The notes beneath the pieces are model-generated. The model did not search any database. It was given only the letters and a program-made list of their open reading frames with translations, and was not told where the DNA came from. Position numbers and translations under genes: made by a program. From assembly GCF_025854335.1 (NCBI RefSeq), contig NZ_CP107716.1, forward strand, positions 3,403,001-3,467,000: a stretch of DNA of 64,000 nucleotides, in the 5' to 3' direction. Positions 4,160 to 22,319 of this stretch are shown piece by piece. Positions within the stretch are counted from its first letter, which is position 1. The number at the start of each line of letters is the position of its first letter. Origin of the DNA: Pelagibacterium flavum. Its GTDB lineage: Bacteria; Pseudomonadota; Alphaproteobacteria; Rhizobiales; Devosiaceae.

Positions 4160-4552
4160 AATGTTCCTGTCCTTTGATATTATCGCTGACATTGTGCGCA
4201 GTGCGGCAATTGAGACCAAATATGGCTCCAATTCACCGAAAGTCGGGCAGCATCATTCCCGAAGTCACTCCAGGGACAAAGCCGCCTCATCACTGCCGAA
4301 CTTGAGCGTTCGCTGCACATAATGCTTTAACACGGGCTAGGGTTGCCAACTTCTCGCCACAAGTCGAGGGACGATACGTCTATAAGGGCGCGGTCTGGCA
4401 GCAAGATCGACTGCGCCGGCGGGGTCAAAATGGAAGGACCGCCCTCGCGCCGGGGCTGCATAGTCGTTGGACAAATTTGCCGGACCAGCCCGATCGTGGC
4501 GCATAGAGCCGGCGTGTCGGCTGACTCTTACGCTGGACCCAAGGAGTGGTGC
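4160..4552. promoter_or_regulatory. Divergent ehuB / eutB control region
   Basis: This 393-bp stretch without a gene separates the divergent transport and catabolic operons and must hold both promoters. For ehuB (minus strand) a weak sigma-70 candidate has -10 GATAAT (complement of 4179-4184) and a TTGCCG -35 (complement of 4204-4209) with a long 19-bp spacer. For eutB an AAGGAG ribosome-binding site lies at 4541-4546. In-frame upstream starts for eutB exist but the sequence does not read as protein. Operators for the AsnC-type regulator are expected here; I could not identify them. Confidence 0.5.
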
Positions 4553-5545: not shown

Positions 5546-5590
5546 TGGGGATTTTCACTACCGCCGGGCGCTTTGCTGATGCCTTTAGTT

Positions 5591-5688
5591 GGATTCCGGG
5601 AACAAGTCCCGGAATGACAATGGGGGGAAGTAAGCTCTCGCGCTCACCATACACTCGACTGTCATTCCGGGACTTGTTCCCGGAATCC
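5591..5688. repeat. 98-bp palindromic element with perfect 28-bp inverted repeats
   Basis: The arms at 5591-5618 and 5661-5688 are exact reverse complements, separated by 42 bp, and each arm is itself a near-palindrome around CCGGGAACAAGTCCCGG. It lies between eutB and eutC. Its length equals that of three other palindromic elements in this window (9236, 13394, 15483), though its arms differ, so it may be a divergent member of the same REP/BIME-like family. Confidence 0.8.
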
Positions 5689-5725
5689 ATCTTGAAGCCG
5701 CGCCCCAATCTCAGGAGGCCGTGTG

Positions 5726-6718
5726 ATGGCTGATGTGCAGATCCTCACCGAAGCCGACCTGAAAAAGCTCGTGCCGCTCGATCCCGAGGCCGTTCAATGC
5801 GTCGAGGACGCTTTCCGCACCTTGGCCGGAGGCAAGGTGGCGATGCCGCCGATCCTTCGGCTCGACATTGCCGAGGCCAATGGCGAGGTGGACGTCAAGA
5901 CCGCCTATGTGCCGGGGCTGGACAGTTTTGCCATCAAGATGAGCCCGGGGTTTTTTGACAATCCCAAGATCGGGCTGGCTTCGACAAACGGGCTTATGGT
6001 GGTCTTGTCGGCAAAAACGGGGCTGCTCGAAGCGCTGCTGCTCGACAACGGGTACCTGACCGATGTGCGCACGGCGGCGGCGGGCGCGGTGGCGGCACGG
6101 CATCTTTCGCGTGAAAATTCGGAAAGTGCCGCAATCATCGGGGCCGGCATGCAGGCGAAACTGCAGCTCGAAGCGCTGGCGCTGGTGCGCCCGATCAAGA
6201 AGGCCGTCATCTGGGCGCGCGACCGGGGCAAGGCCGAGGATCTGGCGCGGCACGCTTCGCTGAAACTGAAGATCGCCGCATTGGTGGCCAGCAGCCCCGA
6301 GACGGCGGTGCGCGGTGCCGACATCGTGGTCACCACCACCCCGGCCACCGAACCGCTGGTTCTGGCCGACTGGATCGAACCCGGCCAGCATGTAACCGCC
6401 ATGGGGTCGGACGCCGAGCACAAGAACGAGATCGATCCCGCGCTGGTCAAAAAAGCCGATCTCTATGTCGCCGACCGGTTGAGCCAGACCCGGCTTCTGG
6501 GCGAATTGCACCACGCCATCAAAGCGGGACTGGTGGGCGAAGGGGACAATTTTGCCGAACTGGGCGCAGTGATCGCCGGGACAGTGCCGGGCCGGACATC
6601 TCAAACGCAAATCACCTTCGCCGATCTCACCGGCACCGGGGTTCAGGATACGGCGATTGCCACCCTGGCCCGAACCCGCGCGCTTGCCAGCGGCGCGGGC
6701 ACACTCTTTCAGACCTGA
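5726..6718 (+). CDS. eutC: Ectoine utilization protein EutC (ornithine cyclodeaminase-like)
   Basis: This 330-residue ornithine cyclodeaminase/mu-crystallin family protein has the NAD-binding GAGMQ (139-143) after a substrate-binding half containing IKMSPGF (K71) and TDVRTAAAG (114-120). The ATG at 5726 follows GGAGG at 5714-5718. EutC is a conserved partner of EutB in hydroxyectoine to ectoine conversion. It lies 180 bp after eutB, a gap filled by a palindromic repeat, and 33 bp before eutD, so eutC and eutD are probably co-transcribed. Confidence 0.85.
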   Translation: MADVQILTEADLKKLVPLDPEAVQCVEDAFRTLAGGKVAMPPILRLDIAEANGEVDVKTAYVPGLDSFAIKMSPGFFDNPKIGLASTNGLMVVLSAKTGLLEALLLDNGYLTDVRTAAAGAVAARHLSRENSESAAIIGAGMQAKLQLEALALVRPIKKAVIWARDRGKAEDLARHASLKLKIAALVASSPETAVRGADIVVTTTPATEPLVLADWIEPGQHVTAMGSDAEHKNEIDPALVKKADLYVADRLSQTRLLGELHHAIKAGLVGEGDNFAELGAVIAGTVPGRTSQTQITFADLTGTGVQDTAIATLARTRALASGAGTLFQT

Positions 6719-6751
6719 TCGTCAGGTCTTTTTCTGGAGCGCCAAGGCAAA

Positions 6752-7936
6752 ATGCCCAATACCCGCCTGCCCTTTACCCTGCCCGAATATTACGAGCGCC
6801 TCGAGGCCGTCCGCCGGTCGATGCAGACGCAGGGCATCGACGTTCTGATCGTCACCAATCCCTCCAACATGCACTGGCTGACCGGCTATGACGGATGGAG
6901 CTTTTACGTGCATCAGGCGGTGATCGTTTCACTCACCGACGAGCCCTTGTGGTGGGGGCGCCCCATGGATGCGGTGGGAGCTGAAAAGACCACATGGCTG
7001 GCAACGGAATCGATCTATTTCTATCCCGATGATTTCGTGCAGAACCCCGACAAGCACGCCTATGTGCATCTGTGCGGTGTGCTCAAGGACAAGGGCTGGG
7101 ACCAGCGCCGCATCGGCGTCGAGATGGACAATTACTATTTCACCGCCGGGTGCCTTGAAACGCTGCGCGCCGAAATTCCTTATGTGGCAGTGGCCGATGC
7201 CACTTCGGTCGTCACCTGGCAGCGTTCTGTCAAATCGGAAGCCGAGATCGAATATATGCGCCGCGCTGCACGGATCGTTGAAGCGATGCATGCACGTATC
7301 CGCGAGGTGACGCGGCCCGGTCTGCGCAAGAACGAACTGGTCGCCGAAATCTACCACGCCTCCCTGGTCGGCGCCGATGGCTATGGCGGAGACTATTCGG
7401 CAATCGTTCCGCTTACCCCCTCGGGGCGCGATGCGGCGGCGGCGCATCTGACCTGGGACGACCGCGAGATGGTCAAGGGCGAAGGCACGTTCTTTGAGAT
7501 CGCCGGGTGCTACAAACGCTATCACTGCCCGATTTCACGCACCGGCTATCTGGGCAAGCCGCCCAAGGACATGCTCAGGGCGCAGGAAGCCGTCCTCGAA
7601 GGCATGGAGGCGGGCATGGCGGTAGCCAAGCCGGGCTATACGTGTGGGGAAATCGCCGATGCGTTTTTCGGCGTGCTCAAGAAATACGGCGTCGAGAAGA
7701 CCTCGCGCACCGGCTATTCGGTCGGGCTGTCCTATCCCCCCGATTGGGGCGAACACACAATGAGCATCCGTCCGGGCGACCCTTCGATTCTGCGCGCCAA
7801 CATGGTGTTCCATTTCATGCCAGCCATCTGGACGCCCGAATGGGGGCTGGAGATCACCGAAACCATGCGCATCACCGACGAGGGCGGGCCGGAGTGCCTG
7901 GCCAATGTGCCGCGCGAGATGTTTGTGAAGAACTAG
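6752..7936 (+). CDS. doeA: Ectoine hydrolase EutD/DoeA (peptidase M24 family)
   Basis: This 394-residue protein has a creatinase-like N-terminal domain (about 1-165) and a pita-bread M24 catalytic domain (about 170-385). Stretches such as LTGYDGWSFYVHQAVIVS, GGDYSAIVPLTPSG and FFEIAGCYKRYHCPISRTGYLG match the ectoine hydrolases I recall. The enzyme opens the ectoine ring to N-acetyl-L-2,4-diaminobutyrate in the cytoplasm. It sits between eutC and the deacetylase gene, in the usual pathway order. Confidence 0.9.
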   Translation: MPNTRLPFTLPEYYERLEAVRRSMQTQGIDVLIVTNPSNMHWLTGYDGWSFYVHQAVIVSLTDEPLWWGRPMDAVGAEKTTWLATESIYFYPDDFVQNPDKHAYVHLCGVLKDKGWDQRRIGVEMDNYYFTAGCLETLRAEIPYVAVADATSVVTWQRSVKSEAEIEYMRRAARIVEAMHARIREVTRPGLRKNELVAEIYHASLVGADGYGGDYSAIVPLTPSGRDAAAAHLTWDDREMVKGEGTFFEIAGCYKRYHCPISRTGYLGKPPKDMLRAQEAVLEGMEAGMAVAKPGYTCGEIADAFFGVLKKYGVEKTSRTGYSVGLSYPPDWGEHTMSIRPGDPSILRANMVFHFMPAIWTPEWGLEITETMRITDEGGPECLANVPREMFVKN

Positions 7937-7952
7937 AAGGGGCAAGGCCCCT

Positions 7953-7980
7953 CGCCCCGACCCTCTCCCCAGAGGGGCGC
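7953..7980. repeat. Short GC-rich palindrome after doeA
   Basis: CCCTCT-CCCC-AGAGGG (7961-7976) forms a 6-bp stem with a 4-nt loop, and the flanking CGCCCC/GGGGCG can extend the structure with mismatches. It looks like a fragment of a dispersed intergenic repeat. It lies in the 61-bp gap between doeA and the M20 deacetylase gene and may be transcribed. Confidence 0.35.
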
Positions 7981-7997
7981 GGCCCTAACCAAATATT

Positions 7998-9176
7998 GTG
8001 GAGTTTGATTTGGCCCATAGACTGCTCGGTGAAACGCTCGAAATCCTCGCGGACCTGATCGGCTTTGAGTCGGTGTCGGCGGACAGCAATCTCGAGATGA
8101 TCGCCTATATCAACCACCGGCTCGACCAGATCGGCACGCGCACCTATCTGACGCTGAACGAGACGGGCAACAAGGCCAACCTTTTCGCAACGCTCGGCCC
8201 GCCCGAGGCCGACGGCGGGATCGTTCTGTCGGGGCATACCGACGTGGTGCCGGTGGAAGGGCAGGACTGGAGTTCGGACCCCTTCACGGCCACGCTGCGC
8301 AACCGGAAAATCTACGGGCGCGGGGCGTGCGACATGAAGGGGTTCATCGCCTGCACGCTGGCTTTCGCGCCCTATTTCCAGGAAATCGGGATCAAACGCC
8401 CCATCCATCTGGCCTTCACCTATGACGAAGAGGTGGGGTGTCTTGGCGCGCATGTGATGCTCAACGAGCTCAAGACGACCGGCCGCAAGCCTTCGCTGTG
8501 CATCGTGGGCGAACCGACCATGATGAAGATCGTCGAGGGCAACAAGGGGTGCTGCGAATACACCACCCACTTCACCGGGCTCGAGGGCCATGGCTCGATG
8601 CCCGACCGGGGGGTCAATGCCGTCGAATATGCGGTGCAGTACGTCACCAAGCTGCTCGAAATCGGCGGGGCGCTGAAATCGCGCGCGCCGGAGGGCAGCC
8701 GGTTCGATCCGCCCTGGTCGACGATCCAGATCGGGAAAATGGCCGGTGGCATCGCGCGCAACATCATTCCCGGCCAATGCTCGGTCGAATGGGAGTTGCG
8801 GCACGTCAATTCGGGCGATTTCGCCTTCACACACGAGCAGATCACCGGCTTTGTCGAGGATGTGCTGCTGCCGAAAATGGTGGACATCCATCCCGACGCG
8901 GCGGTCATCACCGAAACCATCGGGGAAGTGGCCGGGCTCGAACCGATGACCAAATCGGAAGCCGTCGCGCTGGTGCGCGCGCTGACCGGCAATGAGGACC
9001 CCGCCGAATGCGTGGCCTTTTCAACCGAGGCGGGCCTGTTTCAGGAAATGGGCATCGATACGGTCATCTGCGGGCCGGGTTCGATCGAACAGGCGCACAA
9101 GCCCGACGAATTCGTCGAACTCGACCAGCTTTCAGCGTGTCTGGACATGATCGAGGGGCTGGAAAAGCATCAATAG
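7998..9176 (+). CDS. M20 family deacetylase, ArgE-like; probable N-acetyl-diaminobutyrate deacetylase
   Basis: This enzyme of about 390 residues resembles acetylornithine deacetylase. It has metal-ligand motifs LSGHTDVVPVEG, GRGACDMKGF, FTYDEEVGCLGA and CIVGEPT, a dimerization insert with GHGSMPDRGVNAVEY, and the C-terminal AHKPDEF histidine. Following eutD, it occupies the step where DoeB/EutE deacetylates N-acetyl-2,4-diaminobutyrate, but DoeB is an AstE/aspartoacylase-type protein, so this would be a non-orthologous replacement. The start is uncertain: GTG 7998, or TTG 8010 with GGAG at 8000-8003. True ArgE function in arginine synthesis is the alternative. Confidence 0.75.
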   Translation: MEFDLAHRLLGETLEILADLIGFESVSADSNLEMIAYINHRLDQIGTRTYLTLNETGNKANLFATLGPPEADGGIVLSGHTDVVPVEGQDWSSDPFTATLRNRKIYGRGACDMKGFIACTLAFAPYFQEIGIKRPIHLAFTYDEEVGCLGAHVMLNELKTTGRKPSLCIVGEPTMMKIVEGNKGCCEYTTHFTGLEGHGSMPDRGVNAVEYAVQYVTKLLEIGGALKSRAPEGSRFDPPWSTIQIGKMAGGIARNIIPGQCSVEWELRHVNSGDFAFTHEQITGFVEDVLLPKMVDIHPDAAVITETIGEVAGLEPMTKSEAVALVRALTGNEDPAECVAFSTEAGLFQEMGIDTVICGPGSIEQAHKPDEFVELDQLSACLDMIEGLEKHQ

Positions 9177-9235: not shown

Positions 9236-9333
9236 GTCATCCCGGGCGGAGACCCGGGATCCAGTAGCCGGCAGCGTGGCGGCTCCGTCTCAAGCGTTGG
9301 GGGTACTGGACCCCGGCTCAAGGCCGGGGTGAC
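9236..9333 (+). repeat. 98-bp palindromic intergenic element, copy A
   Basis: It begins GTCATCCCGGGCGGAGACCC and ends with GGCCGGGGTGAC. Each end is a small palindrome (CCCGGG...CCCGGG and CCCCGGCTC...GGCCGGGG) joined by CCAGTA and TACTGG and a variable centre. Copies B (13394-13491, inverted) and C (15483-15579) share this layout and length. It lies between the ectoine operon and the F420 island. Confidence 0.8.
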
Positions 9334-9381: not shown

Positions 9382-10383
9382 CTAGCGGAACGCCGGAATG
9401 ATCTCGCGGCCATAGCGGGCGATGATGTCTTCTTCCTCGCCACTGTCGAGATAGATGTTGAACTGGGTGACGCCCGCCGCTTCCAGATCGCGGATTTTTG
9501 CGATGTGATCCTCGGGCTCGCCGAGCACGCAGAAGCTTTCAACGATGTCGTCGGTGATGAAATCGAGGTACGGGTTATCGGACTGGCCGTGCTTGGAATA
9601 GTCATAGCCGCGCCGCGCTTCGATGTATGAGGTCAAACTGGCGGGCACCTTGTCGGAATCCGCCCCGTATTTCTCGACGATATCGGCCACGTGATTGCCC
9701 ACCATGGCCGGGAACCATTTTGTGGCTTCGATGGCCTTCTTCTTGTCCCCGAAATAGGCCGGCGCGGCGGCCATTGACCGATAGGCCGACATATCGCGCC
9801 CGGCGGCCTTGCCCGCTGCGATGCACTGGTCGGTGAACCATTTGCACAGGCCCGGCTCGGCAATCTGGAGCACGACGCCATCGGCGCTTTCCCCAGCGGT
9901 TTTCAGCGCCAGCGGACCATAGGCGGCAATCCAGCTCGGCATGTCGTGGCCCACCGCCCAGGGAAACTGCACCGGATTGGGCACATCGCCATACATCACC
10001 TCCTCGCCGCGCACCATGGCGCGGGTCTTGGCAATGAACTCGGCCACGCGCTTCAATGTCGCGGGCTTGTGGCCCATGACACGGCGCGAGGAATCCCCCC
10101 GGCCGACGGCCAGATCGAAGCGCCCGCCGCTCTGCTTGGCGAGCGAGCCGAACAGCGATGCCGCCACCGACCAGTCGCGCACGTCGGGATTGGTGACCAG
10201 CGGCCCGAACCGCATGTGTCTGGTCCATTCCATGCCCATGGCCATGGCCGGGTACGGATCGCGCCAGAGAATGTGGGAATCATAGAACCAGCAATAGGTG
10301 AACCCGGCATATTCGGCGGCCTGGATCAGATAGCGTGCCCTGTCGTGATCGACAAAACCCTTGAAGGTTATTCCGAATTCCAT
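9382..10383 (-). CDS. LLM-class oxidoreductase, predicted F420-dependent (CPS_4043-like)
   Basis: This 333-residue TIM-barrel protein belongs to the luciferase-like monooxygenase superfamily. Stretches such as ITFKGFVDHDRARYLIQAAEYAGF, CWFYDSHILWRDPYP and RFDLAVGRGDSSRRVMG resemble a family annotated as F420-dependent (CPS_4043 type). The start has AGGA nearby. It is on the strand of the cofE-transporter genes, 164 bp downstream of the ATPase. The cofactor could be FMN rather than F420; the neighbourhood favours F420. The substrate is unknown. Confidence 0.75.
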   Translation of the reverse strand: MEFGITFKGFVDHDRARYLIQAAEYAGFTYCWFYDSHILWRDPYPAMAMGMEWTRHMRFGPLVTNPDVRDWSVAASLFGSLAKQSGGRFDLAVGRGDSSRRVMGHKPATLKRVAEFIAKTRAMVRGEEVMYGDVPNPVQFPWAVGHDMPSWIAAYGPLALKTAGESADGVVLQIAEPGLCKWFTDQCIAAGKAAGRDMSAYRSMAAAPAYFGDKKKAIEATKWFPAMVGNHVADIVEKYGADSDKVPASLTSYIEARRGYDYSKHGQSDNPYLDFITDDIVESFCVLGEPEDHIAKIRDLEAAGVTQFNIYLDSGEEEDIIARYGREIIPAFR

Positions 10384-10444
10384 GATGTTCCTGCCCTCTT
10401 GAACCGTTCGCTCCGTTTGCCGCGGAGCAATATTTTGACCAGAC

Positions 10445-10515
10445 GATCAAATTTTTGATCGCCGCGCAAGCGGAATTTGTCGGAGGCTTTCAGGATAAGT
10501 GGGCGCCACTTATCC
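10445..10515. repeat. Palindromes between the ATPase and LLM genes
   Basis: Two dyads lie in this 164-bp gap: GATCAAATTTTTGATC at 10445-10460, which could be an operator, and a perfect 10-bp stem GGATAAGTGG/CCACTTATCC with loop GCG at 10493-10515. The second has the same layout as hairpins at 22288-22310 and 28195-28217, so it belongs to a dispersed hairpin family. It may mark the end of the upstream operon or reduce read-through. Confidence 0.55.
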
Positions 10516-10547
10516 GGCTGGCAAGCGGGCAAAGCCAAAGCTGCAGA

Positions 10548-11345
10548 TCATTTCCTCGCTTCGGTGAAATGATCCGGCCCATAGGCGATCATCGGGCGGC
10601 CCGAGCGAGGGTTATGCACAATTGTTGCCGCAACGCCATAGACGCGCGCCAGAAATGCGGCGTCGATGACCGTTTCGGGTGCCCCTTGTGCCACCACCCT
10701 GCCCCGATCGAGCGCCACGACATGGTCGAACCAGGCGGCGGTCAGGTTGAGATCGTGCATGGTGACGAGAATGGTCAGCCCTTCGCCCGCGAGCGCGCGC
10801 AGGATTTCCATGACGGCGATCTGGGCCGAAAGGTCGAGATGGTTGGTGGGTTCGTCGAGCAGCAGCAGGCGCGGGGATTGGGCCAGGGCGCGCGCAATAT
10901 GCACCCGCTGTTGCTCTCCCCCTGAAAGAGTGGGAAAGCGCCGGGCTGCGAATTCGGTGACCCCGGCCCGGGCCATGGCGCGGGCGGCGATCTCCTCGTC
11001 ACCGGTCTCGCTGTCGGCAGCCCACAGGCCCTGATGCGGCAGGCGACCCAGCATCACCACGTCATGGACGTCGATGGGCTGCTCGGTCGCGGCGCTCTGT
11101 TCGACCAGCGCGGCGACGCGGGCGCGCTCCCGGCGCGGCAGGGCGTGAAAATCGGCACCCTCGAAGTCGATATGGGCGCGCGCCCCCGGCTCGAAGCCGA
11201 GGATCACCCGCAGCAGCGAGGATTTCCCGGCGCCATTGGGGCCGATCAGCGCGTTGAGACGGCCCGGCTGGATGGCAAAGGATACATCATCGAGGATGGT
11301 CTTGCCCTCGAGGGTGAGACTGGCGCTTTGGATGGAAAGGCTCAT
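10548..11345 (-). CDS. ABC transporter ATP-binding protein, proposed F420-0 importer
   Basis: This 265-residue ATPase of the iron-siderophore/B12 (FecE/BtuD) type has Walker A GPNGAGKSS (about 35-43), Q-loop region VEQSAAT, signature LSGGEQQR and Walker B LLLLDEPTNHLD. The start overlaps the permease stop by 4 bp. General FecE-type sequence would suggest haem, siderophore or cobalamin uptake. The operon with cofE and an Fgd-like gene matches the cassette for which an F420-0 transporter has been proposed (TIGR03873 ATPase, from memory). Confidence 0.72.
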   Translation of the reverse strand: MSLSIQSASLTLEGKTILDDVSFAIQPGRLNALIGPNGAGKSSLLRVILGFEPGARAHIDFEGADFHALPRRERARVAALVEQSAATEQPIDVHDVVMLGRLPHQGLWAADSETGDEEIAARAMARAGVTEFAARRFPTLSGGEQQRVHIARALAQSPRLLLLDEPTNHLDLSAQIAVMEILRALAGEGLTILVTMHDLNLTAAWFDHVVALDRGRVVAQGAPETVIDAAFLARVYGVAATIVHNPRSGRPMIAYGPDHFTEARK

Positions 11346-12400
11346 GTGGCTCGCCTGTTGCGCAACAGGATGAGGAAAAAGGCCGGAGCGCCGATAATGG
11401 CAGTGACGATGCCGACGGGCAGCTCACGCGGGTCGAACAGGGTGCGGGCCGCCGTATCGGTCCACACCATGAAAACGGCCCCGGCCAAAGCCGCGAGCGG
11501 GAGCAGATGGCGATGGCGTCCGCCGGCGACCAGCCGCACCGCATGGGGCAGGATCAGTCCCACAAAGCCGATGGCGCCCGAAATCGCGACAAGAACGCCG
11601 GTCAGCAGCGCCGTGCCGCCGAGCATGATCCAACGGGTTTTTTCCACATCGATGCCCAGAGCGCGGGCGGCCGTATCGCCGAAGACGAAGCCGTCAAGGA
11701 TACGGCCCGAGGCAATGAGCGGAGCGCCGACCGCGGCGAGCGCCACAAGCGCCAGCCCGGTATCGGACCAGCGCGCGCCGGCCAGCGAGCCCATCAGCCA
11801 GGAAAGAATTTCGCGGTAGGAATCCCCGGTCGCCGTCCAGAAGATCAGAAACGAGGTGAGCGCCGAGGCGAGCGCGGAAACGGCCAGCCCGGCCAGAATG
11901 GCGCGCGACGCGGTGATGGCGCCGAGCGAGCGGGCCAGCCCCAGCGTCAGGCCCATGGCAATCAGTGCGCCAATGAACGCCCCGACCGGCAACAGCAGCG
12001 TCGCGCCGATCAGCATCATGGAGACAGCACCCACCGAAGCGCCCGAGGACAGGCCCAAAAGATAGGGATCGGCCAGCGGATTGCGGGTCAGCGCCTGCAT
12101 CACCGCGCCGCAAATGGCCAGCCCGGCCCCCACGGCGGCAGCGGCCAGAACGCGCGGCAGCCGCAATTCCCAGACGATCCCCTCGCGCAGGCGCGAGACC
12201 GGGTTGTCGGCAAGAAGGCCGAGCTTGTGGGCGATCACCGCCCAGACCTCGCCAGGAGAAATATCGGCAGGGCCGATAGTCACCGCGACGATGAGAGACA
12301 CCCCGAGCGCCAGCGCCAGCCCCGCCAGCCCGGCCTGAAACTTCAGCCGCCGCAATGCGGCGGGCGTCAGGGCGGACAGGCCGAGCGGGGCGGCGACCAT
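11342..12400 (-). CDS. ABC transporter permease (FecCD type), proposed F420-0 importer
   Basis: This 352-residue FecCD/BtuC-type permease has about ten hydrophobic segments and the family motifs LRLPRVLAAAAVGAGLAICGAVMQALTRNPLADPYLLGLSSGASVGA and GAIGFVGLILPHAVRLVAG in order. The ATG at 12400 is chosen because it follows the binding-protein stop by 2 bp; the longer open frame upstream reads as shadow of that gene. The substrate is inferred only from the cofE neighbourhood (TIGR03869-like arrangement). Confidence 0.75.
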   Translation of the reverse strand: MVAAPLGLSALTPAALRRLKFQAGLAGLALALGVSLIVAVTIGPADISPGEVWAVIAHKLGLLADNPVSRLREGIVWELRLPRVLAAAAVGAGLAICGAVMQALTRNPLADPYLLGLSSGASVGAVSMMLIGATLLLPVGAFIGALIAMGLTLGLARSLGAITASRAILAGLAVSALASALTSFLIFWTATGDSYREILSWLMGSLAGARWSDTGLALVALAAVGAPLIASGRILDGFVFGDTAARALGIDVEKTRWIMLGGTALLTGVLVAISGAIGFVGLILPHAVRLVAGGRHRHLLPLAALAGAVFMVWTDTAARTLFDPRELPVGIVTAIIGAPAFFLILLRNRRAT

Positions 12401-12402
12401 GG

Positions 12403-13335
12403 CTAGAGATCGAGCTCCTGGAGTTGCCGGGCCAGATCGGCGGTGGCGGGGATGGAGCGGATGCCCGGTTCGGCGGCAGGGAACGGGATGATGATGTAGC
12501 GCTCGTTTTGAACGGCGCTCATATTTGCCGTCGCCGGATTGTCGTTGAGCAGCGTGATTTTCTGGGCGACCGAATTCCACGCCGCATCGACGAGGATCAT
12601 CACGTCCGGGTCCTGATCGACGATGGCTTCCCAGCTTGCCGAGGTCCACGTGTCGGCCACATCGGCAAAGATATTGGCAATGCCCAGTGCCTCCATGGTC
12701 ATCTGCGGGCCGCCGAGACCGGCCCCCACATAGGGCGTTGAAGTGGCCGAGGAATACCAGACGCCGGTCAGGTTTGAGGTGGGCTTGACCTCTTCGAGCA
12801 TGGTACGCTGTTCGGCCACCAGTTGGGCGGCGCGATCCTCGACATCGAAAATTAAGCCCATTTCGACGATCTGGTCGAACACGTCTTCAAACGAGAGCTT
12901 TTCCAGCGTGCCTTCCGAGCGGCAGGCGGTCGGCGCGACATAGGTGGCAACCCCCAGCGCATGCAGGCTGTCGCGTGTCCCTGCCCCATCGGCGGCAAAG
13001 CTCGATTCCCAGCCGCCATAGACAAAATCGGGCTCGGCTTCGAGGACCACTTCCTGGGAGGGAACGCGATCGGCAAGGACGGTCAATGGCGTATCGGGCA
13101 CCCATTCTTCGGGCACCGGACCGTCCTGAAAGCCGACGCCGACGATCCTGTCGCCAAGGCCCAAAGCCAGAAGCAGTTCGGTGGCGGTCGACTTGATGGT
13201 GACGACCCTTTCGGGCGGCGCATCGAAGGTAACGGTCGTGCCGCAATTTTCGATTTCGAGCGGATAGTCAGTGGCGAGGGCAGGGGTTGAGAGGGCGGCG
13301 GCGACCAGGAAACCGGAGAGTGCCGCAATGGCCAT
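12403..13335 (-). CDS. Periplasmic binding protein (BtuF/FepB fold), proposed F420-0 importer
   Basis: This 310-residue protein has a signal peptide (residues 1-21, ending PALATD) and a type III periplasmic-binding fold: CGTTVTFDAPPERVVTIKSTATELLLALGLGDRIVGVG, then LEAEPDFVYGGWES, and DQDPDVMILVDAAWN. These resemble the periplasmic component of the cassette proposed to import F420-0 (TIGR03868, from memory). A longer in-frame start at 13527 overlaps the cofE stop, but the added 64 residues are encoded by palindromic repeat B, so the ATG at 13335 with GGGAG nine bases upstream is preferred. A siderophore or cobalamin binder remains possible. Confidence 0.75.
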   Translation of the reverse strand: MAIAALSGFLVAAALSTPALATDYPLEIENCGTTVTFDAPPERVVTIKSTATELLLALGLGDRIVGVGFQDGPVPEEWVPDTPLTVLADRVPSQEVVLEAEPDFVYGGWESSFAADGAGTRDSLHALGVATYVAPTACRSEGTLEKLSFEDVFDQIVEMGLIFDVEDRAAQLVAEQRTMLEEVKPTSNLTGVWYSSATSTPYVGAGLGGPQMTMEALGIANIFADVADTWTSASWEAIVDQDPDVMILVDAAWNSVAQKITLLNDNPATANMSAVQNERYIIIPFPAAEPGIRSIPATADLARQLQELDL

Positions 13336-13393
13336 GGCCCCTCGCTCCCGCCGGAGAAGCGAAAGACGAAAAGTCGTGCCACGCCCCCAGCTT

Positions 13394-13491
13394 GTCACCC
13401 CGGCCTTGAGCCGGGGTCCAGTAGCCGGCAGCGTATGCGATTTTGCCGGAGCGCTGCCGTGTACTGGATCCCGGGTCGCGCCCGGGATGAC
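13394..13491 (-). repeat. 98-bp palindromic intergenic element, copy B (inside the F420 operon)
   Basis: This is the reverse-complement orientation of copy A: on the minus strand it starts GTCATCCCGGGCGCGACC and ends GGCCGGGGTGAC. It fills the gap between cofE and the binding-protein gene and would be in the same transcript, where it could act as a processing or stability hairpin. Confidence 0.8.
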
Positions 13492-13523
13492 GGCGATGCT
13501 TGCGGCACAGGACGTAAATCCGC

Positions 13524-14333
13524 TCATTTCACCTTTTCCTTTTTCGCCGCCAGCTCGCGCATCGCAGCCTCATAGCCCTGCTTATAGGCCTCGGTCGAGC
13601 CGAAGCGGAACATGTCGTCTTCGCCCAGCCTTGCCAGGGTTTTCGCGCCGGGGCTTTCCGGGTCGATCACCAGCTTTCCCAGGCCCCGCGCTATCGCCAC
13701 TGGCATGCGGGACGCCTTGCCCTTGACCAGATCGGCGGCGGCGGCAAGCTCATCGGCAAGCACGGTGACCGTAACGTTCAATGGCCGGCCATTGGCATCG
13801 ACCCCGCCGCGCAGATCGTCGACCAATTGCACGCCCGCCGCGCCGATGGCCGCATCGGTCTGGCCGACGCGCCAGGGGCGGCCAAGGGTATCGGTGATGA
13901 TGATGCCGAGCCTCTTGCCGGTCTTCGCCCGCAGGGCCTTGCACAGCGCCCGCGCCGACGCGTCGGGGTCACGCGGCAGGCGCAGGGCTAGGCCGTCGGG
14001 GACGTTGGAGGTGTCGAGCCCCGCGGCGGCCATCACCAGCCCCTGCCGGGTTTCAACGATCTTGGTGATCCCGCCCGCATGCGCGCGCTCGGCGACGATG
14101 CGGACCGTATCTTCCTCAATGGCCATTTCGCGCGCCGCGATGGGAACCTGCATGCCTTCGGCTTTGGAGACGATCTTGGACGTGACGATCAGGATATCGC
14201 CATCGGCCAGCGCGGCGTCCGGATCGGAAATGGCCATGTCGTCGATGGCGCCTGAAATCAGCGCGACCAGATCGTCCCCCGCCGCGATCTCGGGGATGCC
14301 TTCTATGCCCCAGAGTGTCAGTCGGTTGGCCAT
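13524..14333 (-). CDS. cofE: Coenzyme F420-0:L-glutamate ligase CofE
   Basis: The 269-residue protein carries the CofE hallmarks VTSKIVSKAEG (about 50-60), ETRQGLVMAAAGLDTSNVP (about 94-112) and IIITDTLGRPWRVGQTDAAIGAAG (about 146-169). CofE adds glutamate residues to F420-0 using GTP, giving polyglutamylated F420. The ATG at 14333 shares one base with the TGA of the upstream LLM gene (TGATG), so the pair is translationally coupled. It has no C-terminal nitroreductase domain, unlike FbiB. No other F420 synthesis gene is visible, which together with the downstream importer suggests salvage of F420-0. Confidence 0.92.
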   Translation of the reverse strand: MANRLTLWGIEGIPEIAAGDDLVALISGAIDDMAISDPDAALADGDILIVTSKIVSKAEGMQVPIAAREMAIEEDTVRIVAERAHAGGITKIVETRQGLVMAAAGLDTSNVPDGLALRLPRDPDASARALCKALRAKTGKRLGIIITDTLGRPWRVGQTDAAIGAAGVQLVDDLRGGVDANGRPLNVTVTVLADELAAAADLVKGKASRMPVAIARGLGKLVIDPESPGAKTLARLGEDDMFRFGSTEAYKQGYEAAMRELAAKKEKVK

Positions 14334-15355
14334 CAGCGCTTCTTGAGTTTGGGCAGCACTTTTTCGGCGAACACGTCTATCCATTCGCGCTGGTTACGGC
14401 CCACATTGTGCAGATAGATGCGATCGAAGCCGAAATCGGCGAACTTTTGAATATGTTCGAGATGCTCGTCAGGATCGGGCGAAATCACCATTCTTCCCTT
14501 GAAGTCCTCGGGGCGGACCAGCTTGGCCATCTGCTCGAAATCGAAAGGAGAGCGGATGTCGGCCTTGGGGAATTTCATGCCGCCATTGGGCCATTCGGTC
14601 ATGGCGTTGGCCAGTGCTTCTTCGTAGGTCTCGGCCCAGCTCAGATGGAGCTGGAGCACCTTGGGCATGGTGTCGGGGTCCTTGCCCGCCTCGCGGGCGC
14701 CTTCGGAAAATTTTTCAAACAGCATCTCGATCTTTTCGAGCGGAGCGCCGACCGTGATGATGCCATCGGCAAATTTGCCGGTCTTTTTGGCGTTGAGCGG
14801 CCCGGCGGTCGCCACGAGAATTTCGGGCGCGGTTTCAGGCATGGTCCACAGCCTTGTGGATTCCATGCGGTAATATTCGCCCTTGTGCTTGGTGTCCTTG
14901 CCGGCAGCCGAGTTCTCGAACAGCTTTTTTATGATCTGGACGGCCTCGAACATGCGGGCGGAACGCTCGCCCACATCGGGCCAGTATTGGGCGAGGAAAC
15001 TTTCATTGAGCGCTTCGCCCGCCCCCACACCCAGCCAGTGGCGGTTGGGATACATGGCGGCCAGCGTGGCCGACGCCTGCGCCACCATGGCGGGGTGCCA
15101 GCGGAAAGTGGGGGTCGTGACGCCGGGGCCCATATCGCCCTTGGTGCGCTCGCCGATGGCGGTCAGAACGTTCCAGACAAACGCCGATTGGCCCTGCTGG
15201 GGCACCCAGGGCTGAAAATGGTCGGCGGCCATGGCGCCGTTAAAACCCTTTTGCTCGGCATATTCGGTCAATTCCACGCAATCGCGCGGGTGAAACTGCT
15301 CGAGCATCACCGCATAGCCGATCAACCCCTCTTGTCCCGATTTGAAAACGGACAT
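14333..15355 (-). CDS. F420-dependent oxidoreductase, Fgd-like (LLM class)
   Basis: This 340-residue LLM protein is strikingly like mycobacterial F420-dependent glucose-6-phosphate dehydrogenase: ADHFQPW (H46, W50) and GVGAGEALNE (E114) match the active-site His, Trp and Glu, and PDPDEHLEHI near the C-terminus is in place. By eye the Fgd lysine that binds the sugar phosphate (K198) is not kept, so the substrate may not be glucose-6-phosphate. The ATG at 15355 follows AGGGGAG; a longer start at 15382 is less likely. It is the first gene of the operon and overlaps cofE by one base. Confidence 0.85.
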   Translation of the reverse strand: MSVFKSGQEGLIGYAVMLEQFHPRDCVELTEYAEQKGFNGAMAADHFQPWVPQQGQSAFVWNVLTAIGERTKGDMGPGVTTPTFRWHPAMVAQASATLAAMYPNRHWLGVGAGEALNESFLAQYWPDVGERSARMFEAVQIIKKLFENSAAGKDTKHKGEYYRMESTRLWTMPETAPEILVATAGPLNAKKTGKFADGIITVGAPLEKIEMLFEKFSEGAREAGKDPDTMPKVLQLHLSWAETYEEALANAMTEWPNGGMKFPKADIRSPFDFEQMAKLVRPEDFKGRMVISPDPDEHLEHIQKFADFGFDRIYLHNVGRNQREWIDVFAEKVLPKLKKR

Positions 15356-15482
15356 CGATGCGACTCCCCTTGGCTTTGCCATCAGTCAATCACAAAGCCG
15401 GAATGAGCAACAGGGGGATTTTTGACCTTTTGGTAAAATTTTTTTGGTACGAAGGAACATAGCGCTCCTTCTTGCTCAGACT

Positions 15483-15579
15483 GTCATCCCGGACCTGATC
15501 CGGGATCCAGTAAACCGAAGCGCTGGCGATTGCGCGCTGGCGCGGAGCGTACTGGCCCCCGGCTCAAGGCCGGGGTGAC
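15483..15579 (+). repeat. 97-bp palindromic intergenic element, copy C
   Basis: It has the same architecture as copies A and B: GTCATCCCGGACCTGATCCG, CCAGTA, a variable centre, TACTGG and a final palindrome ending GGCCGGGGTGAC. It lies between the F420 island and the galactose/arabinose operon, so copies A and C bracket the island. Confidence 0.8.
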
Positions 15580-15600
15580 AATTGGTGCAGCAGGCCAGCC

Positions 15601-16524
15601 TTATTCGATAAACGCTTCTACCTTGGAAATCTCGCCGAGCATACAGGCGTCGGCCACCAGTTGCAGCGGAGAAATATCGACATCGCTTTTGCCCTGCGCC
15701 AGAAGCGAGGCGAAATGGGCGTAGATGCCGTCATATTCGGTGTCGTCGGCGGCCAGTTGGGTTTGCCCGTCGATCTTGAGCACCGCACCGCCGCTCGAGA
15801 GTTCGAGCAGTCCCGCATCGGTTCGAACGGTGATGTCCCAGGTCTGCGGCCCCTCCTGGCGCCAGTCGAAATCGGCGGTGACCTTATGGCCGGTGACCGC
15901 AACGAAATCGATTTTCGCCGCGATGGGGGTCTGGCGGTTCTCCGGCACCTCGAGCACCGCGCCGGTCACCAGCACCGGTGCGGGCAGGACATGGGTGAGG
16001 ATCGAGAGCGCGTTGATGCCGGGATCGAACACGCCCATGCCGCCGGGCTCCCAGATCCAGTCCTGGCCGGGATGCCAGCGGCGCACGTCCTCGCGCCAGA
16101 CGATCTCGACGCTTTTTATGGCCTTGTCGGCCAGCCACGCGCGTGCCGGTTCGACGCCCTGCGCGTAGCGCGAGTGCCATGTGGCAAACAACGTTACGCC
16201 ATGTTCGGCGGCCATCGTCTTGAGCCAGTCGACTTCGGCGACGGTGGCGCCGGGCGGCTTTTCGAGCAGCACGTGCCGGCCGGCGCGGATGGCGGCTTCG
16301 GCGTATTGGCGGCGCACCTGCGGCGGGGTGCACAGCGCCACTGTGTCGATATCGGGACGCGCCGCGAGCATCTCATCGAGCGCCTGGAAATGGTCGACAC
16401 CCTCGAGCTCGGCGTTGCGCGAGACGATGGCGGCCAGCTCGAAATCGGGGTTCTTGGCGATCGAGGGCAGATGCTGGTCACGGGCGATCTTGCCCAGCCC
16501 GACAATGGCGATCCTGTGTGTCAT
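15601..16524 (-). CDS. Gfo/Idh/MocA sugar dehydrogenase, probable D-galactose/L-arabinose 1-dehydrogenase
   Basis: The 307-residue protein has an N-terminal Rossmann fold (IAIVGLGKIARDQHLPSIAKN, residues 4-24), the EKPPG motif that marks the Gfo/Idh family (about 92-96) and an alpha/beta substrate domain. Relatives oxidise D-galactose or L-arabinose to the lactone with NAD(P). The start overlaps the stop of the dehydratase gene (TGATG). The ORF extends upstream, but MTHRIAIVGLG at 16524 is the natural N-terminus. The role follows from the neighbouring dehydratase, transporter, kinase and aldolase genes. Confidence 0.8.
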   Translation of the reverse strand: MTHRIAIVGLGKIARDQHLPSIAKNPDFELAAIVSRNAELEGVDHFQALDEMLAARPDIDTVALCTPPQVRRQYAEAAIRAGRHVLLEKPPGATVAEVDWLKTMAAEHGVTLFATWHSRYAQGVEPARAWLADKAIKSVEIVWREDVRRWHPGQDWIWEPGGMGVFDPGINALSILTHVLPAPVLVTGAVLEVPENRQTPIAAKIDFVAVTGHKVTADFDWRQEGPQTWDITVRTDAGLLELSSGGAVLKIDGQTQLAADDTEYDGIYAHFASLLAQGKSDVDISPLQLVADACMLGEISKVEAFIE

Positions 16525-18266
16525 CAATGGGAATCCCTGCCCACTTCGCGGCCGCGACAGCCCCTGAGAAAATCGAAATCGGCGCCGGTATGGGCCTGAT
16601 CTACGTGATCGAGGAACATCCTTGCATAGCCCGAGTCCGGCTGATCGGGCAGCGGAGACCAATCGGCCAGCCGGGCGGCGATCTCGGTTTCGGGAACGTC
16701 GAGATGGATGGTGCGGTTGGGCACGTCAATGGAAATCATGTCGCCATTGCGCACCACGGCCAGCGGACCGCCCACCGCCGCTTCGGGCGATGTGTGCAGG
16801 ATCACCGTGCCATAGGCAGTGCCCGACATGCGGGCATCGGAAATGCGCACCATGTCCTTTATGCCCTTGCGCAGCACTTTGGGCGGCAGGCCCATGTTCC
16901 CCACTTCGGCCATGCCGGGATAGCCCTTGGGGCCGCAATTTTTGAGCACCATGACGCAGGTCTCGTCGATATCGAGCGCCTCGTCGTTGATCTTGGCCTT
17001 GTAGTCGTCGATGTCCTCGAACACCACGGCGCGGCCGGTATGAACCATCAGATGCGGGCTGGCCGCCGAGGGCTTCAAGACACAGCCATTGGGCGCCAGA
17101 TTGCCCTTGAGAACCGCGATACCGCCATGGCTGGTCAGAGCCTTGTCGACCGGGCGGATCACGTCCTCGTTCCAGTTGCGGGCATTGACGATTTCCTCGC
17201 CCATGGTGCGGCCCGAAACGGTCAGCGCATCGCCATGGAGCTTTTTGCCCTCGAGCAGGGATTTGAGCACCACCGGCAATCCGCCGGCGTAGAAGAACTC
17301 TTCCATCAAATATTTGCCCGAAGGCATGAGGTTGACGATGGTGGGAATATCGCGGCCCAGCCGGTCCCAATCCTCGAGCCCCACATCGACGCCGACACGG
17401 CCCGCCAGGGCCAGCAGATGAACCACCGCATTGGTCGAACCGCCGATGGCGCCATTGGTCATTATGGCGTTTTCAAACGCCTCGCGGGTGAGGATATCGG
17501 AGGGCTTGAGGTCGTCCTTGACCATATCGACGATGCGGCGGCCCGTCAGTTGCGCCATGACGCGGCGGCGGCTGTCGACAGCGGGGATCGCCGCATTGCC
17601 CGAAAGTGCCATGCCCAGCGCCTCGGCCATCGAGGCCATGGTGGAAGCGGTGCCCATGGTGTTGCAGGTACCCGAAGACCGGCTCATGGCCTGTTCGGCC
17701 TCGAGGAAATCCTCCTGGGTCATTTCCCCGGCCTTGATGGCTTCGCTCATCTGCCAGAGCGCGGTGCCCGAGCCGACCCGCTCGCCCCGGAACCAGCCAT
17801 TGAGCATGGGGCCGCCGGTGACGACGATCGAGGGAATGTCGGTGGAGGCCGCGCCCATCAGCAGCGACGGAGTGGTCTTGTCGCAGCCCACCAGCAGCAC
17901 GGCGCCATCGATAGGCTGGCCGCGCATCACCTCTTCGACCGCCATGGCGGCGAGGTTGCGATACATCATGGCAGAAGGGCGGAAGGTGTTTTCCGAGGCC
18001 GAGAACACCGGCACTTCGAGCGGGAAGCCACCGGCCTCCCAGACGCCGGCTTTCACTTTTTCGGCCAGCTCGCGCAGATGGCCGTTGCAGGGGGTGAGGT
18101 CGGACCAGGTGTTCAAGATCCCGATCACCGGGCGACCGTCGAACAGATCGTGCGGATAGCCCTGATTTTTCAGCCACCCGCGATGATAGATGCTATCGCG
18201 CGAGGTTCCGCCATACCATTCCTGCGAGCGCAGCTTGCGTGGCCATTGGGCCTTTTCAAATGCCAT
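16524..18266 (-). CDS. IlvD/Edd-family dehydratase, probable L-arabinonate/D-galactonate dehydratase
   Basis: This 580-residue [2Fe-2S] dehydratase has cluster cysteines at C60 (TPCNGH), C128 (GCDKTTP) and C201 (GTCNTMGTAST), the metal-binding lysine K130 and the catalytic serine region SDARMSG. Its length and N-terminus match L-arabinonate dehydratase of Rhizobium leguminosarum, which also dehydrates D-galactonate. The product would be a 2-keto-3-deoxy sugar acid, passed to DgoK/DgoA for galactonate. It follows gguC by 15 bp and is coupled to the dehydrogenase gene. Confidence 0.87.
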   Translation of the reverse strand: MAFEKAQWPRKLRSQEWYGGTSRDSIYHRGWLKNQGYPHDLFDGRPVIGILNTWSDLTPCNGHLRELAEKVKAGVWEAGGFPLEVPVFSASENTFRPSAMMYRNLAAMAVEEVMRGQPIDGAVLLVGCDKTTPSLLMGAASTDIPSIVVTGGPMLNGWFRGERVGSGTALWQMSEAIKAGEMTQEDFLEAEQAMSRSSGTCNTMGTASTMASMAEALGMALSGNAAIPAVDSRRRVMAQLTGRRIVDMVKDDLKPSDILTREAFENAIMTNGAIGGSTNAVVHLLALAGRVGVDVGLEDWDRLGRDIPTIVNLMPSGKYLMEEFFYAGGLPVVLKSLLEGKKLHGDALTVSGRTMGEEIVNARNWNEDVIRPVDKALTSHGGIAVLKGNLAPNGCVLKPSAASPHLMVHTGRAVVFEDIDDYKAKINDEALDIDETCVMVLKNCGPKGYPGMAEVGNMGLPPKVLRKGIKDMVRISDARMSGTAYGTVILHTSPEAAVGGPLAVVRNGDMISIDVPNRTIHLDVPETEIAARLADWSPLPDQPDSGYARMFLDHVDQAHTGADFDFLRGCRGREVGRDSH

Positions 18267-18281
18267 TGCCCTGCCCTCTTC

Positions 18282-19280
18282 TTATAGCGTTTTGACTGCG
18301 ACAGGCGCGTCGGCGGGGCGTGTCGTATCGATGGTGAGCGGATTGGTGAGCGGCAGGCCGAACGGGGCCGCCTCGATCTCGAAGATGTCGCCTTGCCGGG
18401 TCCGGATGCCGTCGGCAAAGCTCAAGGTCGCCGTGCCGAACATGTGCACATGCACATCGCCGGGCTTGCGGAAGATTTCGTATTTGAAGTGGTGGTGCTC
18501 GAGGTTGGCCAGCGTGTGGCTCATATTGTCCTCGCCGGAAACAAACGGCTTTTCCCACAGCACTGCACCATCGCGGATGACACGCGAGGTGCCCTCGATA
18601 TGGGCGGGCAATTGGCCAACCAGGATTTCCGGGCCGATCGAGGCGGGGCGCAATTTCGAATGCGCGAGATAGAGATAGTTCTGCCGCTCGGTGACGTGGT
18701 CGGAAAATTCATTGGCCAGTGCAAAGCCGATCCGGTGCGGCACGCCTTCATAGGAGATGACATAGATGCCGGCGATTTCGGGTTCCTCGCCCGCGTCGAG
18801 CGCAAAGCCCGGCGAGACGATGGGCTTGCCCGGCGCGACCAGTGCGTGGCCATTGCCCTTATAGAACCATTCGGGCTGCACGCCGGTCTTGCCTCCAGCC
18901 GGCTTGCCGCCCTCGACCCCCATGCGGAACATCTTCATGGAATCGGTGATGTTTTCATCGGCACCGGCCTTCTGGTGCATGGCGTTGCGCGTTGCAGCCG
19001 AGCCCAGATGGGTCAGCCCGGTTCCGGTCAGGTGCAGGCGGGCGGGATCGTCGGGAGTGATCGGAGCGAGAACCCGACCCTCGGCATAGGCGGCCGCCAG
19101 ATCGACGCTTTCGCCCAGTCCCTGTTCGGCGATCAGCGCGACCAGCGCCATATCTCTGGCGATGGCGCGCCTGGCCAGCGCCAGAATGGATTCCGCGCCA
19201 TTGACGATCTTGGCACTGTCCCCCTCGCGCGCCACGACGCGCTGGGAACCGCTGGTATCGAGAATCTGGGAGAGCAGCAC
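18282..19280 (-). CDS. gguC: GguC / AraD1 family protein (FAH-like)
   Basis: The 332-residue protein belongs to the fumarylacetoacetate hydrolase-like family; the acidic stretch DAGEEPEIAGIYV and FALANEFSDHVTERQNYL are in the expected metal-site region. GguC lies beside gguAB in Agrobacterium, and AraD1-type relatives lie in oxidative pentose operons, where a 2-keto-3-deoxy-acid dehydratase role has been suggested; the reaction is not settled. The start is GTG at 19280 with GGAG nine bases upstream. Confidence 0.8.
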   Translation of the reverse strand: MLLSQILDTSGSQRVVAREGDSAKIVNGAESILALARRAIARDMALVALIAEQGLGESVDLAAAYAEGRVLAPITPDDPARLHLTGTGLTHLGSAATRNAMHQKAGADENITDSMKMFRMGVEGGKPAGGKTGVQPEWFYKGNGHALVAPGKPIVSPGFALDAGEEPEIAGIYVISYEGVPHRIGFALANEFSDHVTERQNYLYLAHSKLRPASIGPEILVGQLPAHIEGTSRVIRDGAVLWEKPFVSGEDNMSHTLANLEHHHFKYEIFRKPGDVHVHMFGTATLSFADGIRTRQGDIFEIEAAPFGLPLTNPLTIDTTRPADAPVAVKTL

Positions 19281-19337
19281 TTCAATAAACTCCAGGCAAC
19301 AGGGGGAGACCGGCGCGCTGGAGCGCGCCGGAAAAGA

Positions 19338-20540: not shown

Positions 20541-20649
20541 TGTGGTGTTCCGTTGGTGAATTGATCGAGAAGGCTCAGCCCTTTTTTGGGGAACGCCCGT
20601 CCCCCACCGGGGCAGCGACCGAGCGCGGAAGACGCGAGGGACATCGCCA

Positions 20650-22182: not shown

Positions 22183-22287
22183 GGCGTTCCGTCTCTCTTT
22201 TCTGAGTGTGCGGCGGGGCGTTATGCTGCCCCACCGCACGGCCTCTGGAGGAGGATCTTATGATCCCGTCGGTCGCGCTTTCGAACC

Positions 22288-22310
22288 GCAAAAGTGGTGC
22301 CCACTTTTGC
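22288..22310 (-). repeat. Hairpin between chvE and gguA
   Basis: A perfect 10-bp stem GCAAAAGTGG/CCACTTTTGC with a TGC loop lies 10 bp downstream of the chvE stop codon. It shares its layout with the hairpins at 10493-10515 and 28195-28217. In this position it would favour chvE message over the downstream ATPase and permease. Confidence 0.6.
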
Positions 22311-22319
22311 TGAAAGCAC

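Follow-up and report, generated by a model that had tools for sequence, protein, structure and literature searches.

Why should an alphaproteobacterium whose genome gives no match for three genes of F420 synthesis carry, in a row, the gene of the F420-0:gamma-glutamyl ligase CofE, the three genes of an ATP-binding cassette (ABC) importer and the genes of two luciferase-like (LLM) enzymes, called LLM1 and LLM2 here? The locus lies in a 64,000-base stretch of the Pelagibacterium flavum genome, referred to below as the window (G000:C1:3403001-3467000 in our numbering; the genome is a single contig of 3,930,456 bases with a completeness of 100). The role of F420 in Proteobacteria is named as an open question in one published source (PMC8498797). 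Our results suggest that the cell very probably lives on an imported F420 precursor, and a probable explanation of the locus as a whole is that this salvage serves the breakdown of pyrimidines.

Composition and conservation of the cassette

The cassette consists of six minus-strand genes within 9382-15382 of the window, in the order LLM2, cofE, binding protein, permease, ATPase and LLM1. The original prediction of a six-gene F420 cassette, made from the window's sequence, is borne out, as all six genes were found and scored with NCBIfam models. Scores and cut-offs below are those of the named models.

9382-10383, minus strand: LLM1, predicted luciferase-like F420-dependent reductase of the TIGR03842 family (477, cut-off 295)
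10434-10451, no strand: candidate operator TTTGACCAGACGATCAAA, 51-68 bases before the LLM1 start, with 0 mismatches to TTTGAYCNNNNGRTCAAA
10548-11345, minus strand: ABC ATPase of the importer, best NCBIfam match TIGR03873 (319, below the cut-off of 372)
11342-12400, minus strand: FecCD-type permease of the importer, start ATG 12400 (TIGR03869 484, cut-off 437; PF01032)
12403-13335, minus strand: binding protein, proposed F420-0 binder (TIGR03868 408, cut-off 392)
13392-13491, no strand: doublet of inverted repeats of the repetitive extragenic palindrome (REP) type, between cofE and the binding-protein gene (repeat families D3, I1, I2, I3)
13524-14333, minus strand: CofE, F420-0:gamma-glutamyl ligase, with no FbiB C-terminal domain (TIGR01916 212, cut-off 181)
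14333-15382, minus strand: LLM2, Fgd-like (TIGR03557, the Fgd family, 285, cut-off 210)
15421-15438, no strand: candidate operator TTTGACCTTTTGGTAAAA, 39-56 bases before the LLM2 start, with 1 mismatch

Overlaps had been described at three of four gene junctions. Those of one base between LLM2 and cofE and of four bases between the permease and ATPase genes stand, whereas the four-base overlap of cofE with the binding-protein gene is probably spurious, because the open frame that gives it crosses the REP doublet and ATG 13335, a candidate signal-peptide start 188 bases beyond the cofE stop, is the likelier start. Two bases lie between the binding-protein gene and the permease ATG at 12400, and 164 between the ATPase gene and LLM1. 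The REP-type palindrome occurs in three clusters, at 9301-9333, 13392-13491 and 15483-15581, which flank and interrupt the cassette. Almost all of the 60 loci that we fetched from Devosiaceae (58 first copies and two second copies) keep the six genes together, so the cassette is not a product of chance; LLM1 stands first rather than last in nine of the 57 loci where it was seen.

Probable salvage in place of synthesis

The original prediction of salvage was conditional on a genome without cofC, cofD, cofG and cofH. For three of these our searches agree with it: the models for cofC, cofD and cofH, each of which exceeds its own cut-off in three of 14 control genomes, gave no match at E <= 0.001, and cofG was not searched. 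The definition of the TIGR03868, TIGR03869 and TIGR03873 families presumably includes a host without F420 synthesis apart from cofE, and this is what was found here for cofD, cofH and cofC.

The same pattern extends over the family. Among 136 Devosiaceae genomes the binding protein was found in 68 (E <= 1e-100), cofE in 69 (E <= 1e-20, all over the TIGR01916 cut-off) and LLM1 in 68 (E <= 1e-60), and cofD in none (E <= 0.001). The positives form one set of 69 genomes in which every genome with LLM1 has cofE, and the remaining 67 have none of the three at those thresholds. The set has two gaps: G397, where the binding-protein match is short and thus absent at E <= 1e-100, and G453, which is 55% complete and has no LLM1. 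At the G397 locus (L090, on G397:C2) the permease and ATPase matches also lie in pieces (two), through assembly errors or decay. Binding protein and cofE occur together far beyond expectation (Fisher 2e-38, kinship uncorrected), and no genome but that of the window, among 385 drawn over the class, has the binding protein at E <= 1e-60. The cassette is a trait of the Devosiaceae, inherited nearly as one set. The lack of matches for cofC, cofD and cofH, together with that for cofD over the 136 genomes, supports the original prediction of a cell scavenging F420-0 or a related precursor, and we consider it very likely, as far as these searches go, that it does so.

The P. flavum genome gives four luciferase-like matches; besides LLM1 and LLM2 these are a gene of MsnO8 type and an LLM gene that a TGA interrupts. 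In the region of G000:C1:3219479 (L009; L019:7432-9675) an in-frame TGA breaks the gene of an LLM-FAD oxidase fusion, and intact relatives of it are found near the cassette, beside a nucleoside hydrolase gene, in the Devosiaceae loci L114 and L178.

The importer and its proposed ligand

The cassette importer had been assigned to the TIGR03868/TIGR03869/TIGR03873 type. This holds for the binding protein and the permease, which exceed their cut-offs, but not for the ATPase, which we do not file as a TIGR03873 member because it scores 319 against a cut-off of 372; TIGR03873 is still its best model, the next-best NCBIfam model being a haem ATPase at 250. A fold model of the binding protein (predicted local distance difference test, pLDDT, 93) matches best the Jonesia denitrificans structure 4mlz, with 46% identity and a root-mean-square deviation (rmsd) of 1.3 A, and a profile of the binding-protein family searched against the PDB gave 411 bits on 4mlz and at most 53 on haem and vitamin B12 binders. 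In the binding-protein tree, in which outgroup branches are long, branch support is by SH-aLRT (Shimodaira-Hasegawa-like approximate likelihood ratio test) only and no characterised BtuF, B12 or siderophore binder is included, the cassette protein groups with actinobacterial TIGR03868 proteins, apart from a below-cut-off paralogue of its own genome and from four plasmid-encoded binding proteins whose context is iron-type or unknown. A grouping with B12 or iron importers had been named as a finding that would speak against F420-0 uptake; by tree and profile the binding protein groups with the actinobacterial family, and a plain B12 or siderophore importer is disfavoured, with the reservation that characterised B12 and siderophore binders are outside the tree. 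The paralogous importer of the same genome (G000:C1:2411712-2416592; L017, L018) stays under the cut-offs of TIGR03868 (score 269) and TIGR03869 (score 227), stands with a gene for a 2Fe-2S protein and is probably of siderophore type. Import by the cassette is well supported, and F420-0 would be the ligand. Within the paper library searched there was no match for 'putative F420-0 ABC transporter' or for any of six names and phrases that might denote an F420 importer.

The importer had further been described as belonging mostly to actinobacteria that lack the rest of F420 synthesis. A scan of named genomes gave 321 relatives, of which the best 80 were used, 42 alphaproteobacterial and 38 actinobacterial loci, which are not an even sample; cofD was searched for in the genomes of 36 of the latter. 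That view does not fit these hosts, since 24 of the 36 have cofD over the cut-off (12 are without it, five of these with matches far below), and absence of synthesis is therefore not a general feature of importer hosts. Of the 12 genomes without cofD over the cut-off, 11 have cofE in the fetched locus, versus 11 of the 24 cofD-bearing ones (Fisher p 0.011). A cofD-like gene is found in 11 of the 38 actinobacterial loci, its match starting 9-147 bases past the ATPase match in ten of them and 636 bases past it in one. The importer thus appears to accompany F420 genes in makers and non-makers of the cofactor alike, which agrees with an F420-type ligand.

The predicted reducing enzyme

CofE aligns with solved CofE over residues 3-219 of 269. 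LLM2, which passes the Fgd family model, falls under the cut-off of TIGR03554, the model for Fgd proper (222 against 420). It is 54% identical to the Thermomicrobium roseum Fgd (9hav), with an rmsd of 1.6 A, and 40-79% identical to actinobacterial LLM proteins, most of which are encoded near cofE. The T. roseum enzyme is described as oxidising glucose-6-phosphate while reducing F420 (PMC12750041), and by this homology LLM2, a Thermomicrobium-type Fgd in sequence and fold, would carry out the same reaction. In Devosia the same slot holds a gene that passes TIGR03554 (495.5 against 420; one gene was scored, and the tree agrees). As LLM2 is of the Thermomicrobium type here and the Devosia gene of the TIGR03554 type, the slot seems usually to be filled by an F420-reducing dehydrogenase, of two kinds.

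LLM1 and a possible role in pyrimidine breakdown

The original prediction had noted a second LLM enzyme following the cassette. It is present, but it is likely the client enzyme of the cassette rather than an appendage. Neither a link to pyrimidines nor the operators had been part of that prediction. TIGR03842 proteins are rare, with matches at E <= 1e-60 in six of the 385 class-sample genomes, namely the window's own and G196, G258, G288, G289 and G366. LLM1 is the last gene of a cofG-cofH-cofD-cofC-cofE-npdG-LLM1 operon on plasmids of Leisingera and Paracoccus and likewise in G258, and the Leisingera and Paracoccus proteins are 70-71% identical to that of the cassette. F420 synthesis genes lie near at least one LLM1 copy in G258 and G196, and npdG adjoins one copy in G289. 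In G288 and G366 no F420 synthesis genes occur within the 7-9 kb fetched on either side of LLM1, which is followed by genes for a hydantoinase/carbamoylase-family amidase, a dihydropyrimidinase (TIGR02033 565 and 547, cut-off 393) and an ABC ATPase-like protein. An LLM1 match was counted in 14 of the 38 actinobacterial importer loci, and all 14 have a dihydropyrimidinase-like neighbour with a nitrilase-type gene beyond it; in the two that were scored, LLM1 reaches 593 and 589 (cut-off 295) and the dihydropyrimidinase 534 and 549 (cut-off 393). Because of the dihydropyrimidinase neighbours in G288, G366 and these 14 loci, LLM1 appears to stand where PreA and PreT would be expected.

P. flavum itself has a pyrimidine operon away from the cassette, found in a scan for pyrimidine genes that covered 33% of the genome. 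In L277 (G000:C1:1120001-1140000), genes for an AptA-type omega-aminotransferase (757, cut-off 500), a methylmalonate-semialdehyde dehydrogenase (725, cut-off 448), a TIGR01879 amidase (401, cut-off 204), a dihydropyrimidinase (606, cut-off 393) and ABC proteins run in one direction; a RutR-like gene is divergent from them, and beyond it lies a gene for a pyrimidine-type nucleoside hydrolase, below cut-offs. Compared with the proteins encoded beside LLM1 in G288, the amidase shows 73% identity and the dihydropyrimidinase 70%. From gene context LLM1 is proposed to be an F420H2-dependent dihydropyrimidine dehydrogenase, a function to which we incline by a little. LLM1 is not RutA, as E. coli RutA has no BLASTP match to it at E <= 1e-3. 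Among the matches listed by a literature search, no paper names both F420 and dihydropyrimidinase.

Operators and probable RutR-like control

The cassette promoters share the palindrome TTTGAYC-N4-GRTCAAA. It precedes LLM1 in 57 of 57 Devosiaceae loci where the LLM1 start was located, and of the 49 head genes located 41 have such a site; seven of the eight misses have LLM1 first, and in the eighth (L105) a site at 5878, shortly before the Fgd match at 5936, was overlooked by the start call. These counts leave out the two second-copy loci (L102, L104). The window holds two sites at <=1 mismatch, versus 0.06 expected. At the same threshold 107 sites occur in 1.02 Mb of Devosiaceae loci, versus 0 in five resamplings, and four, two of them in the cassette, in the own-genome sample, versus 0, 0, 0, 0 and 1. 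The 38 actinobacterial loci (0.60 Mb) have no site at <=2 mismatches, and the best match in nine other alphaproteobacterial LLM1 loci has three, among them L231:3438, about 70 bases before cofG. Two further 1-mismatch matches in the P. flavum genome, L262:10114 at the start of an ABC ATPase-like gene and L304:19701, may mark extra regulon members.

The palindrome resembles the RutR box of E. coli, with the consensus TTGACCAnnTGGTCAA. With E. coli RutR the regulator encoded in L277 has 51.5% identity, and in the Leisingera synthesis operon a RutR-like TetR gene (L231:10228-10860, 41.9% identity to E. coli RutR) directly follows LLM1. The resemblance and these RutR-like genes make RutR control of the cassette likely. 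In 15 of the 60 Devosiaceae loci the surroundings of the cassette include a gene for a nucleoside hydrolase with at least 74% identity to the L178 protein. In most cases this gene and the head gene are divergent, and in L114 and L178 it is preceded by a perfect operator site; the two hydrolases that were scored match RihC/UriH/RihA models below cut-off.

Ancestry and comparison with known systems

The prediction had called for trees against actinobacterial cassettes, and those run for CofE and the binding protein place both with Actinomycetota. The trees are quick ones with midpoint roots and SH-aLRT support only. The binding-protein tree contains the window, four Pelagibacterium loci and, from the 42 alphaproteobacterial loci, 17 Devosia-type rows and L191, with low-identity paralogues left out; the cofE tree has 17 Devosia-type rows and the LLM1 and Fgd/LLM2 trees up to 12. 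The Devosiaceae cassette binding proteins form one clade (98, starred) among actinobacterial TIGR03868 rows, with L102 inside and L104 outside it. Their nesting inside Actinomycetota has weaker, unstarred support of 85-88, and the TIGR03868 family as a whole is set off from the own-genome paralogue (99, starred). The cassette CofE groups with actinobacterial CofE, away from that of alphaproteobacterial synthesis operons, and LLM1 with alphaproteobacterial LLM1, away from the actinobacterial branch (both 100, starred). With CofE and the binding protein on the side of Actinomycetota and LLM1 on that of Alphaproteobacteria, the cassette looks like a chimera of mixed ancestry. L102 (G458) and L104 (G477) are second importer cassettes in two Devosiaceae genomes, one beside a 6-phosphogluconate dehydrogenase gene and the other beside a Mer-like LLM gene; their CofE groups, on long branches, with alphaproteobacterial synthesis operons.

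The cassette shares with the TIGR03868/69/73 importers of Actinomycetota a binding protein and permease over the cut-offs, adjacent cofE and Fgd-family genes and, as the source of the nearest solved binding-protein structure, J. denitrificans. It differs from them in its below-cut-off ATPase, its Gram-negative host, an LLM1 of the alphaproteobacterial branch and its RutR-like operators, for which the 38 actinobacterial loci gave no match at <=2 mismatches. With the Rhodobacterales F420 operon of Leisingera and Paracoccus it has in common a closely similar LLM1, CofE and an F420-reducing enzyme, but it carries an importer in place of the synthesis genes, Fgd in place of npdG, and another branch of CofE. 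LLM2 resembles the T. roseum Fgd (9hav and others) in sequence and fold, and its activity is predicted. Compared with reductive pyrimidine catabolism (PreAT or DPD, dihydropyrimidinase and beta-ureidopropionase) and the RutR regulon, P. flavum has a dihydropyrimidinase, an amidase, an aminotransferase, a semialdehyde dehydrogenase and a RutR-like regulator, but no PreA or PreT in the visible part of the L277 operon and no PreA in the third of the genome scanned, and an F420-dependent LLM enzyme is proposed in their place.

Proposed explanation and its alternatives

We infer the catalytic steps, the F420-0 ligand, the RutR link and the dihydropyrimidine dehydrogenase role in what follows from sequence. 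F420-0 is small enough for porins by mass, and the cassette contains no TonB receptor gene. The binding protein and the FecCD/ATPase importer would take up F420-0, CofE would, to judge by its family, add glutamates to it, and LLM2 would reduce the resulting F420 with glucose-6-phosphate. LLM1 would spend F420H2, most likely on uracil or thymine, whose reduction to dihydropyrimidines begins the reductive pathway; later enzymes of the pathway are encoded in the separate L277 operon. A RutR-like box stands in each of the two cassette promoters, so pyrimidines probably induce the uptake, the reduction and the use of F420. This combination of salvage and a pyrimidine role is the explanation that we regard as probable.

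Several results weigh against it. The ATPase lies under the TIGR03873 cut-off. LLM2 scores 298 on TIGR03885 'flavin_revert', although an FMN enzyme of that kind is disfavoured by the cut-off of 399 and by the 54% identity to T. roseum Fgd, and Pelagibacterium lacus (L083, L191) has the cassette with no reducing enzyme of either kind detected in the slot. LLM1 is not within the visible part of the L277 operon, whose far end lies beyond the stretch, which ends inside the ABC genes. In the 33% of the genome scanned, PreA gave no match in a search without a positive control, and PreT one weak match (27%, L268) that is not counted as PreT. The L277 regulator is below both RutR cut-offs (TIGR03613 244 against 368; NF011584 224.1 against 230), and the L277 operator match has two mismatches, in a sample with 13 sites at <=2 mismatches versus 0-5 in resamplings. 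In the E. coli rutA-rutR region the best site at the rutA promoter has three mismatches, no better than chance. In Actinomycetota, the best model for the nitrilase-type gene is N-carbamoylputrescine amidase, with a score below cut-off, and LLM1 is only 36-44% identical to that of Devosiaceae, so the substrates may differ.

In one alternative, which we hold unlikely but worth attention, F420-0 is salvaged as proposed and LLM1 reduces something else, such as hydantoin, a pyrimidine analogue or an unrelated enone, its neighbours belonging to a broader pathway for nitrogen-containing rings. Hydantoinase activity is also known of dihydropyrimidinases (TIGR02033 carries the name D-hydantoinase), the amidase families are broad, and for the actinobacterial amidase the best model is the below-cut-off one for N-carbamoylputrescine amidase. 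The closest solved relatives of LLM1 are methylene-tetrahydromethanopterin reductases (Mer), at low scores; Mer activity itself is improbable, since LLM1 scores 122 on TIGR03555 (cut-off 349) and has Thr in place of Glu6, which is the mutated residue of 8qq8. The pyrimidine assignment is favoured over such substrates by the RutR-like box, by the RutR-like genes and, in some relatives, by a gene at this promoter whose product matches pyrimidine-type nucleoside hydrolases below their cut-offs.

Other alternatives concern the cargo. Uptake of finished F420 with its glutamates, or of FO, in place of F420-0 is improbable. CofE could also lengthen a short tail, and some producers release FO, but FO would require cofC and cofD, for which the genome has 0 matches, and import of finished F420 leaves the conservation of CofE with the importer unexplained. 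We give still less weight to an importer for a pyrimidine, a nucleoside or a metal chelate, with CofE glutamylating another molecule such as folate. In its favour, the usual cargo of FecCD transporters is an iron chelate, haem or cobalamin, there is a family of folate ligases resembling CofE (TIGR04132), and pyrimidine genes lie near the actinobacterial copies. However, CofE scores 212 on TIGR01916 versus 67 on TIGR04132 (cut-off 350), CofE and the importer are co-inherited over 136 genomes of which none has cofD, 11 of 38 actinobacterial loci include a cofD-like gene, and the pyrimidine operon has ABC genes of its own.

Surrounding genes

Two further clusters adjoin the cassette. The plus-strand genes at 4343-9176 probably form an ectoine catabolism cluster (EutB, the ornithine-cyclodeaminase family, a DoeA-like protein just under the cut-off and the M20 peptidase family). 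Upstream of LLM2, 15601-23387 probably holds a sugar catabolism cluster with a Gfo/Idh oxidoreductase, an IlvD/Edd dehydratase and ABC transporter genes.

Implications

Salvage with a pyrimidine role, if true, would mean that some Gram-negative bacteria scavenge F420 as a shared good, a cofactor otherwise familiar chiefly from methanogens and actinobacteria, and would supply a physiological reason for the scavenging. It is about an even call, on the present genomic comparisons, whether LLM1 represents a new F420H2-dependent dihydropyrimidine dehydrogenase and much of the Devosiaceae imports foreign F420-0 chiefly for this enzyme, under one RutR-type pyrimidine-sensing control. The proposal offers testable substrates for the importer and the TIGR03842 enzymes, all of them orphans so far, and with it the role of F420 in Proteobacteria would become testable in culturable Devosia and Pelagibacterium.

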